From Nocardiopsis listeri (GTDB lineage Bacteria; Actinomycetota; Actinomycetes; Streptosporangiales; Streptosporangiaceae), in NCBI RefSeq assembly GCF_020741345.1, contig NZ_DYZD01000464.1:1-38539 (forward strand): a DNA stretch of 38,539 nt, written 5' to 3'. Shown in pieces: positions 22,452-30,199 of this stretch. Each line of letters begins with the position of its first letter. Position 1 is the stretch's first letter. The notes beneath the pieces were generated by a model, which ran no database searches, had not been told where the DNA came from, and was given only the letters and a program-made list of their open reading frames with translations. A program made the position numbers and the translations under genes.

Positions 22452-23738
22452 ATGACCATGGAACGGCCACAGCCGTACCTTCACCCGCAACCACCGGGGA
22501 ACGGGGCCGAGGGGCCCGCTCCGCTCATCCGCAACCAGGACTTCCAGGCCCTGTGGACCAGCCGTTTCTTCGCGGGATTGGGCAAGGAGAGCGGTGAGGT
22601 CGCCTACCCCCTGCTGATCCTCCTCCTGGCCGGGTCCGCGTCCCAGGCGGGCGTCATCGGTGCCGCTCAGGTCGCCACCACCATGATCACGGCCGTGGTC
22701 GGAGGATCCCTCGCCGACCACGTCAACCGGCGCGCCATCCTGCTCGTCTGCGACATCGGCCGGCTCCTGCTCCTCGTCGGTTTCGCCTCGATGCTGCTCA
22801 ACGGTGAGGTCGACGTGCCGCTCGTCATCGGGGTGGCGGTCGCCTCCTCGGCCCTCATGGGTGTCTCCAACCCGGTGGCCATGGCGGCGATCAAACAGCT
22901 CGTCCCGTCCTCGCAGGTCGCGAGCGCGTCGGCGCAGAACCAGATCCGCTTCTTCGGTACCACCGCCCTCGGCGCGCCTCTGGCCGGGTCGCTGTTCGGT
23001 CTGGGCCGCGCCTTCCCGTTCCTCACCGAGGCGGCCTGCTACCTGTTGTCCACGGCGCTGCTCCTGCGCATCCGCCGCCCCATGCAGGCCCCACGGCGCC
23101 CGGAAGGGGAACCGTGGACCCTGCGCGGCACCGTCACCGGATTCGTCCTCCTGACCCGGCACCCGATCCTGCGGCCGATGATGTGCTGGATCATCGGTTT
23201 CAACCTCGCCTTCACCCAGACGGGCGTGTTCCTCGCGATCATCGCCACCGCGCATGAGCGCGGCGCCTCCAACCTGCTGGTCGGGGTGACCGTGTCGCTG
23301 GCCGGGCTGGGCGGGCTGGCCGGAGCGTTGGCGGCCGGCCCGGTGTTGCGGGCCGTGACCCCCTCCCGGATCTTCCTCTTCGCGGCGTGGTCGGCGCCGG
23401 TCTGCGCGCTCGTCCTGGTGATCACACCCGGAGTGCTTCCGCTGGGGATGATCGTGGCGTTCGTCTTCGCCGCGGTCCCCTGCGTCAACGCGGTCTTCTT
23501 CGGCTACGTGGCCGCCACGGTGCCCGACCACCACCAGGGGCGGGCCCTGGGCGCGGTGACGTTCATGGCGCTGTTGTCCCAGCCGATCGGCATCGTCGGG
23601 GTGGGGGTGGTCTTCGACCTGGCCGGCCCGGTCCCGGTGTTCGTGACGATGGCGGTGGTGTCCGTGCTGGCCGCGCTGTTCACGCTCGGTCCCACCATGC
23701 GGACCCTGCCTCGCCCGGAGGAGGTCTCCGTCCTCTGA
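22452..23738 (+). CDS. MFS transporter, MFS_3/enterobactin-exporter (EntS)-like
   Basis: A 428-residue major facilitator with 12 hydrophobic segments. The start of the fold, LIRNQDFQALWTSRFFAGLG, and the loop 2-3 motif GGSLADHVNRRAILLVCDIG are typical of the MFS_3/EntS-like exporters found next to antibiotic and siderophore genes; substrates are usually drugs or siderophores. ATG at 22452 (MTMERPQPYL) is chosen with GGGAAG at 22437-22442; the upstream in-frame ATG at 22371 lies in the putative attenuator and has no ribosome site. It is preceded by a long regulatory region and ends just before a 30-bp palindrome. Confidence 0.9.
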   Translation: MTMERPQPYLHPQPPGNGAEGPAPLIRNQDFQALWTSRFFAGLGKESGEVAYPLLILLLAGSASQAGVIGAAQVATTMITAVVGGSLADHVNRRAILLVCDIGRLLLLVGFASMLLNGEVDVPLVIGVAVASSALMGVSNPVAMAAIKQLVPSSQVASASAQNQIRFFGTTALGAPLAGSLFGLGRAFPFLTEAACYLLSTALLLRIRRPMQAPRRPEGEPWTLRGTVTGFVLLTRHPILRPMMCWIIGFNLAFTQTGVFLAIIATAHERGASNLLVGVTVSLAGLGGLAGALAAGPVLRAVTPSRIFLFAAWSAPVCALVLVITPGVLPLGMIVAFVFAAVPCVNAVFFGYVAATVPDHHQGRALGAVTFMALLSQPIGIVGVGVVFDLAGPVPVFVTMAVVSVLAALFTLGPTMRTLPRPEEVSVL

Positions 23739-23770
23739 AGGACCCGCCCTCTCCTGCCGAACGCACGCCG

Positions 23771-23800
23771 AGGACGGTGGCCGACGTCGGCCACCGTCCT
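23771..23800. terminator. perfect 30-bp palindrome, bidirectional terminator
   Basis: AGGACGGTGGCCGAC followed directly by its exact reverse complement, with no spacer. It lies 32 bases after the MFS stop and 18 bases before the end of the convergent anti-sigma gene. As RNA it would fold to a 13-bp stem with a four-base loop. Confidence 0.82.
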
Positions 23801-23818
23801 GGGTATCGTCGACGCCGG

Positions 23819-24562
23819 TCAGCCGTCGACAGGCATGGCCATCACCGGATCGGACGTGGGCTGCTCGGATCCGCCTTCCGGCTCGATGGTGACGGCGATG
23901 CCGTCGGTCTCCTCGTCCTGGGAGGAGGCCAGGACCGGGAGGACGAAACCCTCCTCTTCGACCGCGAGCACCCCGGCCGAAGAGACCGACCCGTCCGGCC
24001 GGGTCAGCCACAGCTGGTAGTCCTCGTCGCTCAGGTCCTCCAGACCGTGCGCGCTGAACACCAGGTCGCCCAGGGACTCGGAGCGCACCACCGTCACGCT
24101 CACGCCCTCCATGGGCTCGGCGCTGGTGGTGACGGCGTCCGGCGCGGCCAACACCGCGGCGATCTGCTGTTCGTTGCCGCGCAGCTCGTTCACCTGTTCG
24201 CGCTGGTCGAGCACCACCGCGCCCAGGGCGATGATCGCGGCCAGGCAGGCGGCCAGCACCAGACCCAGCGTCCAGGGAAGTCCGGGGCGGCGGGGTTCGG
24301 GCAGTCGTTCGGGGGCGGGAGCGAGCTGACGGGTCCGGGAGACCTCCTCCAGCACCTTCGCGCGAAGTTCCACGGGCGGTGTCTCGGCGACCGCGGCGGC
24401 CAACCGCGCGGAGGTCTCGGTGAAACCTCGAACCTCCTGCACACAGGAGTCGCAGTCGCTCAGATGGTCCTCGAACCGCACGCTCTCGCTCGGGGTGAGG
24501 GCGTTGAGCGCGTAGGCGCCGGTCAGTGTGTGCAGGTCCGGCCCGAGTGACCTTCTCACCAC
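23819..24562 (-). CDS. rskA: anti-sigma-K factor RskA
   Basis: A 247-residue membrane anti-sigma factor. The cytoplasmic N-terminus holds the zinc-type anti-sigma motif HLSDCDSC (H33, C37, C40) in the segment LTGAYALNALTPSESVRFED; one transmembrane helix (about residues 96-118, LGLVLAACLAAIIALGAVVL) follows, and the extracytoplasmic part is the RskA domain ending VTIEPEGGSEQPT. It would hold SigK at the membrane and release it after regulated proteolysis. The start is GTG at 24562, overlapping the SigK stop (GTGGTGA), so the two are translationally coupled, as is usual for ECF sigma/anti-sigma pairs. A GTG one codon later is equally possible. Confidence 0.93.
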   Translation of the reverse strand: MVRRSLGPDLHTLTGAYALNALTPSESVRFEDHLSDCDSCVQEVRGFTETSARLAAAVAETPPVELRAKVLEEVSRTRQLAPAPERLPEPRRPGLPWTLGLVLAACLAAIIALGAVVLDQREQVNELRGNEQQIAAVLAAPDAVTTSAEPMEGVSVTVVRSESLGDLVFSAHGLEDLSDEDYQLWLTRPDGSVSSAGVLAVEEEGFVLPVLASSQDEETDGIAVTIEPEGGSEQPTSDPVMAMPVDG

Positions 24563-25146
24563 TCCACCCCCAAACAGTCTCTGAGTCGAATCAGTCCGTC
24601 GCGCATCCTGGTCTTGATGGTGCCCAGGGGCGTCGACAGCAGCCGGGCCACGTCACGGTAGGTGTAACCGCCGTAGAAGGCCAGACGCACCGACTGTTCC
24701 TGGACTTCGGTGAGGTTCTCCAGACACCGCCGGACACGTTCGCGTTCCAGTCTGTCCGTGGCCTGCTCGGCCACCTCGTCATAGGGGCGTTCGGTATCGG
24801 CCGCCGCCGCTCGGGACTCCCGGTCGGTGGCCGCCTGTTCCGAACGCACACGGTCCACCGCCCTGCGGTGGGCCAGGGTCATCACCCACGCCTGGGGGCT
24901 TCCCCTGCGCGGGTCGTAACGACAGGCGCTGCGCCATACCTCGACCAGCACATCCTGGGCGACCTCCTCCGACTGGGCGGGGTCGCGCAGCACACGCCGG
25001 ATCAGCCCGTACACGGTCGGACCGAGCAGGTCGTACACCCTGTTGAACGCCTGCTCCTCGCCGTGCGCCACACGGCGCAGTAGATCCTCCAGTTCGGGAG
25101 GGCCCCCCGGGGAGGACCCCTGCGGTGACGCCGTCGCCCTGTCCAT
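24556..25146 (-). CDS. sigK: ECF RNA polymerase sigma factor SigK
   Basis: A 196-residue ECF sigma factor. Region 2 covers residues 20-105 (EQAFNRVYDLLGPTVYGLIR, EEVAQDVLVEVWR, GSPQAWVMTLAHRRAVDRVR) and region 4 residues 140-192 (EQSVRLAFYGGYTYRDVARL, STPLGTIKTRMRDGLIRL). Together with RskA downstream and fasciclin genes upstream this is the SigK set known from mycobacteria. Cys141 and Cys191 are 50 residues apart, the spacing I recall for the Cys133-Cys183 disulfide that makes M. tuberculosis SigK release from RskA redox-sensitive. ATG at 25146 has GGAAGG about six bases upstream. It lies 109 bases after the fasciclin 1 gene. Confidence 0.93.
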   Translation of the reverse strand: MDRATASPQGSSPGGPPELEDLLRRVAHGEEQAFNRVYDLLGPTVYGLIRRVLRDPAQSEEVAQDVLVEVWRSACRYDPRRGSPQAWVMTLAHRRAVDRVRSEQAATDRESRAAAADTERPYDEVAEQATDRLERERVRRCLENLTEVQEQSVRLAFYGGYTYRDVARLLSTPLGTIKTRMRDGLIRLRDCLGVEW

Positions 25147-25255
25147 CTACGGCCTTCCGGTGAGGGACGTGGTCCTGTGGTTCCGGTGCGATGGGTGGTC
25201 CCGGGCGACCCGTCCTCTGAGTTCGAGCCGCCCGGGTGCTCGGTTCACCCTCCCA

Positions 25256-25921
25256 TCAGGAGGGCATCAGAACGGAGTCGATGATGTAGACGGTGGCGTT
25301 GGAGGTCTGCACGTTGCCGCACACCACCTCGGCGTCCTCGTCCACGGTGAACTCCTCGCCGGAGCCGCTGGTGGTCACTTCCCCACCCTGCAGCGACGTG
25401 AACGTGCCGTCCTCCAGGTCCTCGGGCGCGTGTCGGCCCTCGACGACGTGGTAGGTCAGCACCTCGGTCAGCTGGTCCTGGTCGGCCATCAGCGCGTCCA
25501 TGTCCTCCTGCGGGATCTCGTCGAACGCGTCGTTGCTGGGCGCGAAGACGGTGATGTCCTCGGCCGAGTCCAGGGTGTCGACCAGGTCGGCCTCCTCCAC
25601 GGCACCGACCAGGGTGGACAGCAGCGGGTTGTTGGAGGCGGCGGTGGCGACCGGCTCCTGGGCCATGCCCTCGAAGCTGCCTTCGCCGTCCTCGGGCACG
25701 TCGGCGCAGCCCGGGCCGAAGTTCTCGCCGGCGGTCTCCATCCCCCCGTCGGAGCCCTCCTCCTCCATGCCGTCACCGTTCTCGCTGGTCTCCTCCGCGT
25801 CGCCCATCTCCGGGGCCTCTTCGGCTCCGTCGTCCATGCCACCGCAGGCCGTGAGGCCGAAGGCGAGCGCGGCGGCGGCAGCGGTCGTGGTGAGTACGTT
25901 CTTGCGGATGATGGTGTTCAT
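25256..25921 (-). CDS. fasciclin (FAS1) domain lipoprotein, MPT83/MPT70-like, copy 1
   Basis: A 221-residue secreted lipoprotein. The signal peptide ends in the lipobox LTAC (Cys26), followed by an acidic linker of about 45 residues rich in Glu, Asp and Met, and one FAS1 domain from about residue 75: GPGCADVPEDGEGSF, NNPLLSTLVGAV, ITVFAPSNDAFDEIP, LTYHVVEG and NATVYIIDSVLMPS. The cysteines in GPGCADV and VVCGNV match the disulfide pair of mycobacterial MPT70/MPT83, which are major SigK targets. ATG at 25921 is preceded by GGGAGAG. The upstream extension of the frame is antisense or out of frame with the oxidoreductase and is not coding. It lies 76 bases after that gene. Confidence 0.92.
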   Translation of the reverse strand: MNTIIRKNVLTTTAAAAALAFGLTACGGMDDGAEEAPEMGDAEETSENGDGMEEEGSDGGMETAGENFGPGCADVPEDGEGSFEGMAQEPVATAASNNPLLSTLVGAVEEADLVDTLDSAEDITVFAPSNDAFDEIPQEDMDALMADQDQLTEVLTYHVVEGRHAPEDLEDGTFTSLQGGEVTTSGSGEEFTVDEDAEVVCGNVQTSNATVYIIDSVLMPS

Positions 25922-25997
25922 CTCTTCTCTCCCTTGATTCACTCTGGTCACATCTGTGGGCGTTGACGATCTGTGGTCGTGGTGGGGTCGGTGGCGT

Positions 25998-27620
25998 TCA
26001 GTCGGCGGTGAACCGGATCCGGTGCCACCCGGTCGCCCCGTCCGGGATGGGATCCACGCGCTCCGCGGGCTGGGTGAACCCGGTGGAGTCGGTGGACCGC
26101 ACCTCCACCGAGTGCATTCCGGGATCGAGGTCGACCTCGGCCACCCACTGCACCCAGGTGTCGATGCCGGGGACGGCGGCGAGTTCCGCCTCCCACCAGT
26201 CGCCGTCGTCGACGCGCACCTCCACGGCGTCGATGCCACGGTGCTGGGCCCAGGCGATCCCGGCCAGGACGACCTCGCCGGAGTCCACGCGCCCGAGCGG
26301 GGCGGGCACGTCGATGCGGGACATGGTCTTGATCGGGGCGCGGACGCCCCACCCGCGCCGGGCCCAGTAGGCCTGTTCGTCGGCGAAGCGGGTCAGCCTG
26401 ATGTCGGTGACCCACTTCGTGGCGCTGACGAACCCATAGAGACCGGGCACCACCATGCGGGCGGGGAAGCCGTTGACGTGGGGAAGCGGCTCGCCGCCCA
26501 TCCCCACGGCGAGGAGGGAGTCGCGGCCGTCCATGACCACCTCTGTCGGGGTGCCACAGGTCCAGCCGTCCTGCGAGGTGCTGAGGATCTGGTCGGCGTC
26601 GGAGTGGACCCCCGCCTCGCGCAGCAGGTCGGCGAGCGGGAATCCGAGCCAGCGGGTATTGCCGATGAGGTCGCCGCCGACCTGGTTCGACACGCAGGCC
26701 AGGGTGATGTCGGCCTCGACGAGCCCGCGGGACAGCAGTTCATCCATGTCGATCTCGAAGGGCTCATCCACCAGTCCGTGCACGCGCAGGGTCCACTGTG
26801 TGGAGTCCAGGCGCGGGATGGTGAGCGCGGTGTCGATCCGGTAGAAGTCCTTGTTCGGGGTGGTGAAGGGTGCCAGACCCGGAACGTCGAGGTCAGCGCC
26901 GGACGGCAGTGCGGGCAGGGGTTCGGCGGGCGCGGGGAGCGCCAGTTCGCCCCTGGACCCGGCGCCGCCGGTGAGAGAGGGAAGGAAACGCCCCAGGGCA
27001 CCGGCGGATCCGGTGGCGGCGAGGACCCCGGCCGAGGTGAGCACGAAACCGCGCCTCCCCGGTCCCCGGTCCGGCCCCGGCGCGGGGGGCGTGTCGCCCT
27101 CCGCGTCCGCCGGTGCCCGGGGTTCCCCCTTCTTCTCTCCCCCCGCTTGGAGGGCCGGACGCGCACTCCTGAGAAGAAGCCACAGCGCCCCGGCGCCCGC
27201 CGCCCCGCCGACTACCACGGCCGAGGCCGCCCCCAGGTCGTCGGCGCGGCGCAGGACCACGGCGGTGAGCCCCACCGCCGTGAACAGGAACAGCCCCGTG
27301 TAGCCGAGGGCCGGGCGACGTAGTGACACGGCTCCGAGCAGCGTGCCGGCCAGGACGAGGACGACCACGACCCCGGTGATCAGTACGACCTTGTCGGCCG
27401 TACCGAAGAGCGTGATCGCCCACTCCATGAGGAACGGGGGACTGTTGTCGACGAGCGCGTCGCCGACCGTGACCACCGGCGAGGTCGCACGCGTCAGCCC
27501 GGCGGCGAGTTCGCCGAATCCGAGGGCCGCCCCGACGACGAGCAGGCCGAGGACCGCACCGATCATCCGTGGTCGGGTGCCGTGTGGCGGGCGCGGTGTC
27601 CCGCTTGTCCTTGTGGTCAC
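25998..27620 (-). CDS. membrane-anchored molybdopterin-dependent oxidoreductase (sulfite oxidase/MsrP superfamily)
   Basis: A 540-residue fusion. The N-terminal 150 residues contain four hydrophobic helices (about 19-42, 78-99, 105-124, 132-150) and a fifth follows an RRGF sequence at 189-210, which anchors the enzyme with its catalytic part outside. Residues 245-430 are the oxidoreductase molybdopterin-binding domain; Cys309 in ITLACVSNQVGG is the molybdenum ligand, and GFPLADLLREAGV and VVPGLYGFVSATKW are family motifs. The C-terminus is the Mo-co oxidoreductase dimerisation domain. The substrate may be sulfite or an envelope sulfoxide; neither is proven. The GTG at 27620 sits 7 bases after a SigK-type -10 box, so the mRNA is probably leaderless. 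Confidence 0.92.
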   Translation of the reverse strand: MTTRTSGTPRPPHGTRPRMIGAVLGLLVVGAALGFGELAAGLTRATSPVVTVGDALVDNSPPFLMEWAITLFGTADKVVLITGVVVVLVLAGTLLGAVSLRRPALGYTGLFLFTAVGLTAVVLRRADDLGAASAVVVGGAAGAGALWLLLRSARPALQAGGEKKGEPRAPADAEGDTPPAPGPDRGPGRRGFVLTSAGVLAATGSAGALGRFLPSLTGGAGSRGELALPAPAEPLPALPSGADLDVPGLAPFTTPNKDFYRIDTALTIPRLDSTQWTLRVHGLVDEPFEIDMDELLSRGLVEADITLACVSNQVGGDLIGNTRWLGFPLADLLREAGVHSDADQILSTSQDGWTCGTPTEVVMDGRDSLLAVGMGGEPLPHVNGFPARMVVPGLYGFVSATKWVTDIRLTRFADEQAYWARRGWGVRAPIKTMSRIDVPAPLGRVDSGEVVLAGIAWAQHRGIDAVEVRVDDGDWWEAELAAVPGIDTWVQWVAEVDLDPGMHSVEVRSTDSTGFTQPAERVDPIPDGATGWHRIRFTAD

Positions 27621-27627
27621 GTCGGGT

Positions 27628-27654
27628 ATTCGGAGCCGAGGCGGGGGCGGATGG
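27628..27654 (-). promoter_or_regulatory. SigK-type promoter of the oxidoreductase gene
   Basis: On the minus strand CCATCC (27654-27649) and CCGAAT (27633-27628) are separated by 15 bases. These are the -35 and -10 hexamers I recall for mycobacterial SigK promoters. The -10 box ends 7 bases before the GTG start at 27620, which puts the expected transcription start on the start codon. No other copy with both hexamers was found upstream of the two fasciclin genes or sigK. Confidence 0.8.
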
Positions 27655-27744
27655 GTCGGTCGACGACTTTTTCCGGGATTTTCTCCGCGGGGTTCGGATC
27701 CACCGCGCGGTCACCGTCGACGTGGGTTCGGCGGTCCATGTGTG

Positions 27745-28338
27745 TCAGGACGGGATGAGGAGCATGCCCACCACGTGGACGGTGGCGTTGGCGGTGTGCA
27801 CGTCGGCGCAGACCACCGGGGCGTAGCCGTCGACCGTGTACTCGCCCTCGTCCTCGGTGGCGCCGAGACGGTCGCCGTTGAGGGTGTCGAAGGAACCACC
27901 GTCCAGGTCGGCGCTGCCGAACTCACCGAGGACGACGTGGTGGCCCAGAAGGTGCGCGGGACCGTCGGGGGAGTCCAGCAGACCCTGGATCTCCGCGGTG
28001 GGGTACATGTCGAATGCGTCGTCGGTGGGGGCGAACAGGGTCATGTCGTCGGCCGTGTCCAGGTCCGACCCCAGGCCGGACCGCTCCAGCACGTCGGCCA
28101 GGCGGCCCAGCAAGGGGTTGTCGGCGATGGCGTCGCCGAGGGGTTGCCCGGCCATCGTGGAGAGGCTCCCGGGACCCGTGTCGGGGAAGTCCGCGCAGCC
28201 GGGGCCGAAGGCTCTGACCGGTTCGGTGTCGGCCTCGGCGCTGCGGCCGTGTTCCTCGCTCCCGCCGTTCCCCCCGGAACAGGCGGCGAGGGAGAGAAGG
28301 AGCACGGCGCACCCGGCCGTGAGGGTGGTTCGATGCAT
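27745..28338 (-). CDS. fasciclin (FAS1) domain lipoprotein, copy 2
   Basis: A 197-residue lipoprotein paralogous to the gene at 25256. MHRTTLTAGCAVLLLSLAAC is the signal peptide with lipidated Cys20, followed by a short Ser/Glu linker and a FAS1 domain: GPGCADFPDTGPGSL, DNPLLGRLADVL, MTLFAPTDDAFDMYP, LGHHVVLGEF and NATVHVVGMLLIPS. The cysteine pair of MPT70/MPT83 is conserved (GPGCADF, VVCADV). It is the first gene of the minus-strand cluster and lies 124 bases upstream of the oxidoreductase start, from which it is separated by the SigK-type promoter. No SigK hexamers were found in front of this gene itself; an operator-like dyad lies at 28371-28392. Confidence 0.92.
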   Translation of the reverse strand: MHRTTLTAGCAVLLLSLAACSGGNGGSEEHGRSAEADTEPVRAFGPGCADFPDTGPGSLSTMAGQPLGDAIADNPLLGRLADVLERSGLGSDLDTADDMTLFAPTDDAFDMYPTAEIQGLLDSPDGPAHLLGHHVVLGEFGSADLDGGSFDTLNGDRLGATEDEGEYTVDGYAPVVCADVHTANATVHVVGMLLIPS

Positions 28339-28370
28339 CTTCCACTCCGCCAGACGACTCAGAGTTACGA

Positions 28371-28392
28371 ATTCATCACGTTACGTGTGAAT
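28371..28392. promoter_or_regulatory. near-perfect dyad between fasciclin 2 and the OmpA-like gene
   Basis: ATTCATCACGT (28371-28381) abuts TACGTGTGAAT (28382-28392), whose reverse complement ATTCACACGTA differs mainly by a one-base shift. The element begins 33 bases upstream of the fasciclin 2 start codon and 215 bases from the OmpA-like start. The rest of the 268-base divergent region shows nothing else that I can name. Confidence 0.4.
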
Positions 28393-28606
28393 CGCTTGCG
28401 TCGAGAGTCGCGACGCGCCGAAGCGCCAACGTGGAACGGGGTGCCGACCGGCGCCCCGGAACGCCTTGAAACGGAATCCGCGCATACGGGTCATCGCTGG
28501 CCAGGGCGGGTGCCGCGACTCTTCACGGGACACCTTGGTCGGTTCGACCCCGTGAGTGCTGGAAGATGTTGCCGGTACGTCCTCTCAACGATCGGAGTTC
28601 CCCCAC

Positions 28607-30199
28607 ATGGCGCGGAAGAAGCACCTAACCGTGGTCGCGCTCATGGTCTCGGGCAGCCTCCTCCTCAGTGGCTGCGCCCCCGTGTCCGACTGGTGGTCCG
28701 AAACCTTCGGAGACGCGTCCGGACCGCCCGAGGTCAGGGAGGAGTTCCCCTACGTTCGCGAGGGACGCATCTTCCAGGACACCGGCCAGGACGCCGAGAT
28801 GCGCTTCGCCATCACCGGACTGGAGCGCACCGACGACTACACCGTCATGCACTACGAGGTCACCTACCTGGACGACTTCGCCGGGCCCAACCGGAACCTG
28901 AGCATGGCCCACACCCTGGTGGACCCCCTCACCGGACGCGTCTACCGCCAGTTCCTCGACGACGAGGGCCTCAAGTACGGATCGGAGAGCCCCAACGAGG
29001 ACGGGCTCTACCCGGTGCACGACGGGGTCACCAACGAGTACACCCGCTACTTCCCCCGTATCCCCGACGAGGTCTCCCAGGTGACGTTCGTCGGCAGCGG
29101 GCTGGGCGCCATGACCGGTATCCCCATCCAGGACGTGGAGACCGAGCGGGAGGACCCGGAGAACCCCAACGGGCCCGACCACCTGTCCCTGGACGACCCG
29201 CCCGGGCGGGGCGAGAACCTCACCTTCGCCAACCGTCGCCCCGAAGAGGACGCCCTCGCCGACGAGGGTTGGGTGCAGAGCTTCGTCGACTCCGAGATCG
29301 CCTCCACCACCCGGGACGGCGACCGCGAGATCATCTCGCTGCACTCGGACGTGATGTTCGAGTTCGACCGCTCGGACCTGACCGACGACGCCGAGGACGT
29401 GGTCCGCCGCGCCGCCACCACCCTGGCCCAGAACGTCGACCCCGACGAACCCACCATCACCGTGGTCGGCCACACCGACGGCATCGGCGACGACGCCTAC
29501 AACGACGGCCTGTCGGTGGAGCGCGCCGAGAGCGTGCGGGACCTGCTCGCCGAAGAGCTCGGCACCGACTACCGGCTGGAGGTCGAGGGCCGGGGCAAGC
29601 GTGAGCCCATCGCTCGCGAGGGCGGCTCCGACGACGAGGAGGCGCGGGCCCGCAACCGGCGCGTGGAGTTCTCCTACGTCTTCAACCCGACGGTGGAGGC
29701 CACCGAGGACGAGGAGTACGACGACGACGGTCTCGGCGTGGCCCAGCGCAACGTGACCTGGCCCGCCCCCTACAGCGACGACCCGGGTTCCGTGGTCGCC
29801 GAGGGGGAGGAGAACGGGATCCGGCTGGAGATCTACCCGCTGCGCCGCGACGGCGCCTACGTCATCGGCACCGTGGCGATGACCAACACCACCGACGATC
29901 CGCTCGCCCCCGAGCTGGGCGGCAGCGAGACGGTGGCCGGCGGCCCCGAGCAGTTCAACAAGGGCACCCTGGGCGGGTTCCAGCTGTACGAGCCGGAGGG
30001 TGGGCTGGTCCGCTACGTGGCACAGATGGACTTCGGCGAGAACCGCTACAGCAGCTTCGCCGAGGAGGTGCACACGATTCAGCCCGGTAACACGCACGAG
30101 CTGGTCGCGGTGTTCCCCGCCCCGCCGGTGGACGTGGAGGAGCTGACGATGCGCGCCGGCCCCTTCGGTGAGTTCGAGGAGATCCCGGTCGAGTACTAG
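28607..30199 (+). CDS. OmpA-domain lipoprotein
   Basis: A 530-residue secreted lipoprotein. The ATG at 28607 gives a short basic start (MARKKHLTVVALMVSG) and the lipobox LLLSGC with Cys23; GGAG lies about nine bases upstream. Residues ~30-240 are an unassigned acidic domain. An OmpA/MotB-type peptidoglycan-binding domain follows at about 245-365, with SDVMFEFDRSDL, VVGHTDGIGDDAYN, LSVERAESVRDLL and ARNRRVEFSY. About 165 further residues form another beta-rich acidic domain. In actinobacteria, where there is no Gram-negative outer membrane, such proteins probably bridge membrane and wall. It is divergent from the SigK-linked cluster and monocistronic. Confidence 0.9.
   Translation: MARKKHLTVVALMVSGSLLLSGCAPVSDWWSETFGDASGPPEVREEFPYVREGRIFQDTGQDAEMRFAITGLERTDDYTVMHYEVTYLDDFAGPNRNLSMAHTLVDPLTGRVYRQFLDDEGLKYGSESPNEDGLYPVHDGVTNEYTRYFPRIPDEVSQVTFVGSGLGAMTGIPIQDVETEREDPENPNGPDHLSLDDPPGRGENLTFANRRPEEDALADEGWVQSFVDSEIASTTRDGDREIISLHSDVMFEFDRSDLTDDAEDVVRRAATTLAQNVDPDEPTITVVGHTDGIGDDAYNDGLSVERAESVRDLLAEELGTDYRLEVEGRGKREPIAREGGSDDEEARARNRRVEFSYVFNPTVEATEDEEYDDDGLGVAQRNVTWPAPYSDDPGSVVAEGEENGIRLEIYPLRRDGAYVIGTVAMTNTTDDPLAPELGGSETVAGGPEQFNKGTLGGFQLYEPEGGLVRYVAQMDFGENRYSSFAEEVHTIQPGNTHELVAVFPAPPVDVEELTMRAGPFGEFEEIPVEY

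Follow-up and report, generated by a model that had tools for sequence, protein, structure and literature searches.

A SigK-type promoter and a predicted leaderless oxidoreductase mRNA in the sigK cluster of Nocardiopsis listeri

The molybdopterin oxidoreductase gene (oxr1) in the sigK cluster of Nocardiopsis listeri very probably has a SigK promoter of its own, which would produce a leaderless oxr1 mRNA and a transcript that probably runs on through fas1 to sigK and rskA. This reading comes from a 38,539-nt stretch of DNA (the window) and is backed by comparison with related loci, namely by the motif, its conservation, its association with SigK and a fixed 7-nt geometry between promoter and start codon. 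From these we infer SigK dependence, the position of the 5′ end and the read-through.

Results

The minus strand of the window carries fas2, oxr1, fas1, sigK and rskA in this order (Table 1). In front of oxr1, direct reading of the window gives CCATCC gcccccgcctcggct CCGAAT at 27654-27628(-), followed by acccgac and then by the GTG at 27620-27618, so that the original prediction of CCATCC-N15-CCGAAT 7 nt upstream of GTG is borne out by the sequence. We take CCATCC as −35 and CCGAAT as −10 to be the SigK consensus; the two hexamers stated together with SigK were not found in the literature searched. With spacers of 14-19 nt the window contains one exact match, against a mean of 0.03 in dinucleotide shuffles (a match in 3 of 100), and no second N15 site with ≤2 mismatches was found on either strand of 23500-28700 beyond 27654-27628(-). 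The draft genome (477 contigs) contains five exact matches with the same range of spacers, two of them N15. None of the other four resembles the promoter of an obvious gene; one is N17, and the ORF downstream of it is, as we presume from its sequence, ribosomal L13-like.

Table 1. Features of the promoter region and the gene cluster in the window
Feature	Position	Strand	Basis
fas2, fasciclin-domain protein, upstream of the promoter	27745..28338	(-)	Profile match; shared transcript not claimed
A tract upstream of −35, UP-element-like	27668..27672	(-)	AAA in 12/12 orthologues; putative role
−35 element CCCATCC (consensus CC[AC]ATCC)	27649..27655	(-)	Window and orthologue alignment
15-nt spacer	27634..27648	(-)	Less conserved than both hexamers in 12 orthologues
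−10 element CCGAAT	27628..27633	(-)	Window and alignment of 12 orthologues
7-nt discriminator	27621..27627	(-)	Length fixed in 11 named orthologues
GTG start codon and predicted +1 (27620)	27618..27620	(-)	Offset 8 after −10; GTG in 12/12 orthologues
oxr1, membrane-anchored molybdopterin oxidoreductase, 540 aa	25998..27620	(-)	PF00174, 138 bits
fas1, fasciclin-domain protein, ATG 25921 with SD-like motif	25256..25921	(-)	Profile match
Conserved hairpin in the fas1-sigK gap	25200..25236	(-)	Folding energy and pair counts in 17 sequences
sigK, ECF19-type sigma factor	24556..25146	(-)	NCBIfam SigK model, similarity to 4nqw
rskA, anti-sigma factor	23819..24562	(-)	RskA_N and RskA_C

The hexamers, whose absence from orthologous upstream regions had been named beforehand as evidence against the prediction, are present there. 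All 11 named Nocardiopsis/Streptomonospora loci have the site, always with a spacer of 15 and a GTG distance of 7. Their −35 hexamer reads CCATCC in five, as in the window, and CAATCC in six, and all fit CC[AC]ATCC. Mean information over 12 sequences, the window included, is 1.83 bits in the −35 and 1.93 bits in the −10 element, 1.09 bits in the spacer and 0.69 bits upstream. Moreover, all 12 aligned orthologues share an AAA some 50 nt ahead of the oxr1 start, and the A tract that contains it in the window may function like an UP element. These comparisons point to 27655-27628(-) as a genuine SigK-type promoter of the form CC[AC]ATCC-N15-CCGAAT, and its arrangement with the start codon appears to be kept in several distant actinobacterial groups.

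Alternatively, oxr1 might lack a promoter and be read from fas2, with its start coupled to translation of a 40-codon ORF that ends in a TGA overlapping the GTG (GTGA). Such an ORF is open between fas2 and oxr1 in the window, and actinobacteria often have overlaps of this GTGA kind. However, a small upstream ORF with this coupling was rejected as not conserved among the 12 orthologues: its frame offers a start codon within 120 nt in five (the window, L006, L012, L015 and L070), two of these starts lie 2 nt from the GTG, and a stop codon interrupts the frame in L007, L009 and L013. In addition, fas2 lies upstream of oxr1 in seven of the 11 named loci but the remaining four retain the motif without it, and translational coupling gives no account of the conserved hexamers. 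We therefore regard transcription from fas2 as very unlikely and keep to a promoter that belongs to oxr1. Among the orthologues, L070 (N. eucommiae) has oxr1 in two pieces in different frames, by frameshift or sequencing error. Tandem oxr1 copies occur in L012, G021 and G033, and in L012 and G021 the motif precedes the sigK-proximal copy.

The N-terminal part of Oxr1 reads as membrane-spanning. Against the NCBIfam SorA, SoxC, SorT and MsrP models every score of the protein is under the cut-off, which leaves its substrate open. The window SigK passes the NCBIfam SigK model NF007228 (289.5 bits, cut-off 226), is nearest to M. tuberculosis SigK 4nqw (E 5e-52) and, aligned with it, has the cysteines at both C133 and C183 (M. 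tuberculosis numbering). These positions are named in the available part of PMC7509140, according to which only 56% of ECF19 possess both cysteines. The N-terminal helix of the window RskA, HTLTGAYALNAL, resembles the AS19-1 consensus as given in the accessible text of PMC7406223, and the window rskA is the only RskA_C match in this genome.

Association of the motif with sigK was examined in 80 oxidoreductase loci, 30 with and 50 without a SigK homologue in the stretch retrieved. The motif precedes the oxidoreductase gene in 29 of the 30 linked loci (L044 is the exception) and in 11 of the 50 others, where contig ends truncate several stretches and Arthrobacter supplies most of the 11 motif-bearers (Fisher 2e-11, phylogeny ignored). 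The order of the genes is not the same in all groups (oxr-fas-sigK-rskA, sigK-rskA-oxr-fas or fas-sigK-rskA-oxr). Planotetraspora, Nonomuraea and Streptomyces L020 have an extra site directly upstream of sigK, and in Paeniglutamicibacter and its kin a site precedes a fasciclin gene.

Within 40 genomes of the genus, CCMATCC-N15-CCGAAT was found 34 times and the reversed pattern 0 times. The four other exact matches in the N. listeri genome (spacers 14-19) look accidental, as the oxr1 site might also be, but with this excess in the genus and with conservation across families the prospect of a chance match is negligible. Eighteen of the 34 sites are at oxr1 (one at a 99-aa remnant, in G006), 11 at an Rv0449c-like FAD oxidase and five elsewhere; the 11 comprise nine sites that were inspected, one assigned by position and one (G025) by upstream resemblance alone. 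rskA1 is found in 28 of the 40 genomes, once as a partial match. Across 37 genomes oxr1 is present in 25/25 with rskA1 and 0/12 without; the two genes are linked, hence their co-loss may represent few events. The FAD oxidase is unlinked, and it occurs (E < 1e-100) in 25/28 rskA1-positive and 0/12 rskA1-negative genomes, a comparison in which the Fisher test again ignores phylogeny. The N. listeri genome has no close copy of this oxidase and no second convincing SigK site among its exact matches, so that its regulon may consist of one locus.

Two rskA1-negative genomes still have an intact-looking SigK site, upstream of the short oxr1 remnant in G006 (L136) and of an apparent FAD-oxidase relic in G025 (L123); these promoters seem to outlive their sigma factor. 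In L240 (G023) the rskA1 match contains an in-frame TAG, which is possibly a natural rskA-defective strain or else an assembly error.

The matches listed from a class-wide pattern search of 246 genomes were dominated by background and served solely to pick a genus with a high motif count. By gene content this genus is Mycobacterium-like: its sites precede fasciclins, two Rv0449c-like genes and one gene that we take to be DipZ-like. Among 90 of the matches listed, taken from the top, 36 have a spacer of 15, and spacers of 13, 14, 16, 17, 18 and 19 account for 11, 10, 2, 14, 8 and 9. An ATG or GTG at +7 follows 10 of the 36 N15 matches listed versus 1 of the 54 others, and the two Rv0449c-like genes and the DipZ-like gene all have their start codon 7 nt after the −10 element. 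Hence, 15 is the ordinary spacer, and the suggestion that it is a lineage variant does not hold. According to the part of PMC7509140 available, mpt70/mpt83 and Rv0449c are established targets of SigK.

Another ECF sigma factor might nevertheless use a real promoter at this position, since −10 elements are shared among ECF factors, and CCGAA also occurs in the SigK2 sites described below. Yet the motif tracks sigK linkage, the unlinked FAD oxidase tracks rskA1, a second RskA_C match is missing from this genome, and the same motif stands upstream of SigK targets in the Mycobacterium-like genus. We judge use by another factor quite unlikely. The assignment to SigK gains support from the orthologues, which keep hexamers, N15 and the 7-nt distance, and from the occurrence of the motif at fasciclin, Rv0449c-like and DipZ-like genes.

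Distances of 4-10 nt from a −10-like box to an in-frame ATG or GTG were tested in the 80 loci: 29 have 7 nt, five have 5 nt, one has 6 nt and three have 8 nt. Of 33 distinct SigK-type sites classed as leadered, 31 carry a pyrimidine at offset 7 and 30 a purine at offset 8, the position that G27620 occupies in the window. These 33 do not include L050, which had been placed with the leaderless loci before its reading frame was checked; its 7-nt ATG does not lie in frame, and counting it as leadered brings the set to 34 sites, 31 of them with a purine at offset 8 and 32 with a pyrimidine at offset 7. Two members of the set, L062:1109 and L066, are atypical. The same pattern is reported for initiation in M. 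tuberculosis, which prefers a purine at +1 and commonly has a pyrimidine at −1 (PMC3898074, in the portion available). No Shine-Dalgarno motif (AGGA, GGAG or GAGG at −20 to −5) was found upstream of oxr1 in any of the 12 orthologues, whereas fas1 and fas2 of the window each have one.

A SigK promoter could also give a short leader, or a start a few bases inside oxr1. Relatives exist in which the geometry differs: Paeniglutamicibacter and its kin have the site but an in-frame start codon elsewhere than at +8, and in Knoellia the distance is 8 nt. The leadered sites are also rich in purines at offsets 9 (0.79) and 12 (0.82). However, the pyrimidine/purine pair at offsets 7/8 appears even where no start codon constrains these bases, and the distance is exactly 7 nt in 29 loci, for ATG and GTG alike, without a Shine-Dalgarno motif at oxr1. 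A leader or an internal start is accordingly unlikely. The start of transcription on the GTG, as originally proposed, agrees with the 7-nt loci, the offset signature and the missing Shine-Dalgarno motif as far as sequence can tell, and we consider a leaderless oxr1 start at GTG 27620 well supported, though not proven. Codons 1-17 of oxr1 have no third-position excess of variation in 12 orthologues, so that codon use alone is no proof of translation from this GTG. The ATG at codon 19 was rejected as the true start; it occurs in the window and L006 alone among the 12 orthologues.

No other SigK-type site was found at fas1 or sigK in the window and the named Nocardiopsis loci, so control of sigK by SigK would need the oxr1 promoter. 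A simple scan of 23500-28600 found no sigma-70-type promoter, and the one terminator-like site in this region lies within oxr1 and is no better than chance. With no other SigK-type site found in the cluster, read-through from the oxr1 promoter into sigK and rskA is plausible. The fas1-sigK gap contains a hairpin (25198-25238, −29.2 kcal/mol, z −5.1) that is present, in one form or another, at the examined sigK loci (L237-L263). Pairs were counted in 17 distinct 41-nt sequences from 27 sigK loci; 19 loci gave 41-nt sequences, two of them repeats, and one of 42 nt, one of 37 nt, four partial and two visible by eye only were left out. In these sequences 99.0% of cells pair, although the five outer pairs could not vary, since the search expression fixed CCCGG and CCGGG. 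In three pairs both partners have changed (6 cells), counts reached by 13 and 2 of 500 shuffles. The covariation score lies above 500/500 shuffles, but the number of further pair types does not (176/500). The hairpin has no T-run, and attenuator, processing site and stabiliser are candidate roles. Such a structure in front of sigK weighs against simple read-through.

The 17 genus genomes fetched (L267-L283) have another oxidoreductase (oxr2, about 50% identical), divergent from a second sigK-rskA pair; N. listeri itself has no oxr2. GTCnnC-N15-CCGAA-N7-ATG stands in frame at oxr2 in 16 of the 17, and on the opposite strand GTCnnC-N15-CCGAA faces sigK2 in 13. In the 40 genus genomes GTCKCC-N15-CCGAAC-N7-RTG occurs 20 times and the reversed pattern 0 times; 18 of the 20 enter oxr2-like starts, one per genome. 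SigK2 also passes the NCBIfam SigK model (242.1, cut-off 226). Thirty-one SigK1-type and 17 SigK2 sequences have six conserved-but-different positions, four of them in region 4 (156, 159, 166 and 179). The idea that region 4 of SigK2 is more diverged overall than region 2 was rejected (mean SigK1-SigK2 identity within the genus 63.1% versus 61.1%), so a −35 change would depend on single positions. It is thus reasonably probable that these relatives have two paralogous modules whose leaderless promoters share N15, CCGAA and 7 nt but differ in the −35 element, CC[AC]ATCC for SigK1 and GTC[GT]CC for SigK2.

Discussion

According to our model, SigK released from RskA would join RNA polymerase at 27655-27628(-), and initiation at G27620, with which the GTG codon begins, would yield a leaderless oxr1 mRNA. 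Transcription would then probably continue into fas1, and beyond the conserved hairpin reduced or processed transcription would probably reach sigK-rskA and lead to positive feedback. With promoter and start codon in fixed register across several families, induction by stress would go together with leaderless translation.

Sequence places a periplasmic-type molybdopterin oxidoreductase in the SigK regulon, which suggests that SigK-RskA in these actinobacteria handles cell-envelope redox chemistry. The literature searched, Veyrier et al. 2008 excluded, gave no published link between SigK and this oxidoreductase, and the SigK inducing signal is described as still unknown in the available part of PMC7509140. 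The paralogous SigK2 module may be the more surprising part of these findings. With the same geometry and another −35 element, it would offer a matched pair for the study of −35 specificity change and, if the two-module reading is true, a natural experiment in which an ECF factor changed its −35 element after duplication while initiation stayed locked to the start codon.

The system resembles the mycobacterial SigK regulon in sigma family, hexamers, N15 spacer and the fasciclin and RskA partners, but the gene behind the promoter is here a membrane-anchored molybdopterin oxidoreductase within the sigK cluster. As far as PMC7509140 was available, M. tuberculosis sigK is autoregulated through the Rv0449c promoter; the SigK-type promoter of oxr1 likewise lies upstream of sigK and could feed it. 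The Rv0449c-like gene of Nocardiopsis lies elsewhere in the genome and is leadered in the nine genus loci inspected. The same part of that source describes the mpt83-sigK-rskA cassette (Veyrier et al. 2008), with a fasciclin gene and a conserved SigK site even in Gram-negatives. A fasciclin gene adjoins sigK-rskA and a SigK site is conserved in our cluster as well, whereas the oxidoreductase bears the sole SigK-type site found in the Nocardiopsis cluster. In mycobacteria about one quarter of transcripts are leaderless, and GTG or ATG suffices (PMC3898074 and PMC6448022, in the portions available). Unlike these transcripts, the present case would have the promoter of an alternative sigma factor tied to the start codon of one gene family in several actinobacterial families, whereas the SigK-type sites at fasciclin genes and sigK are leadered.
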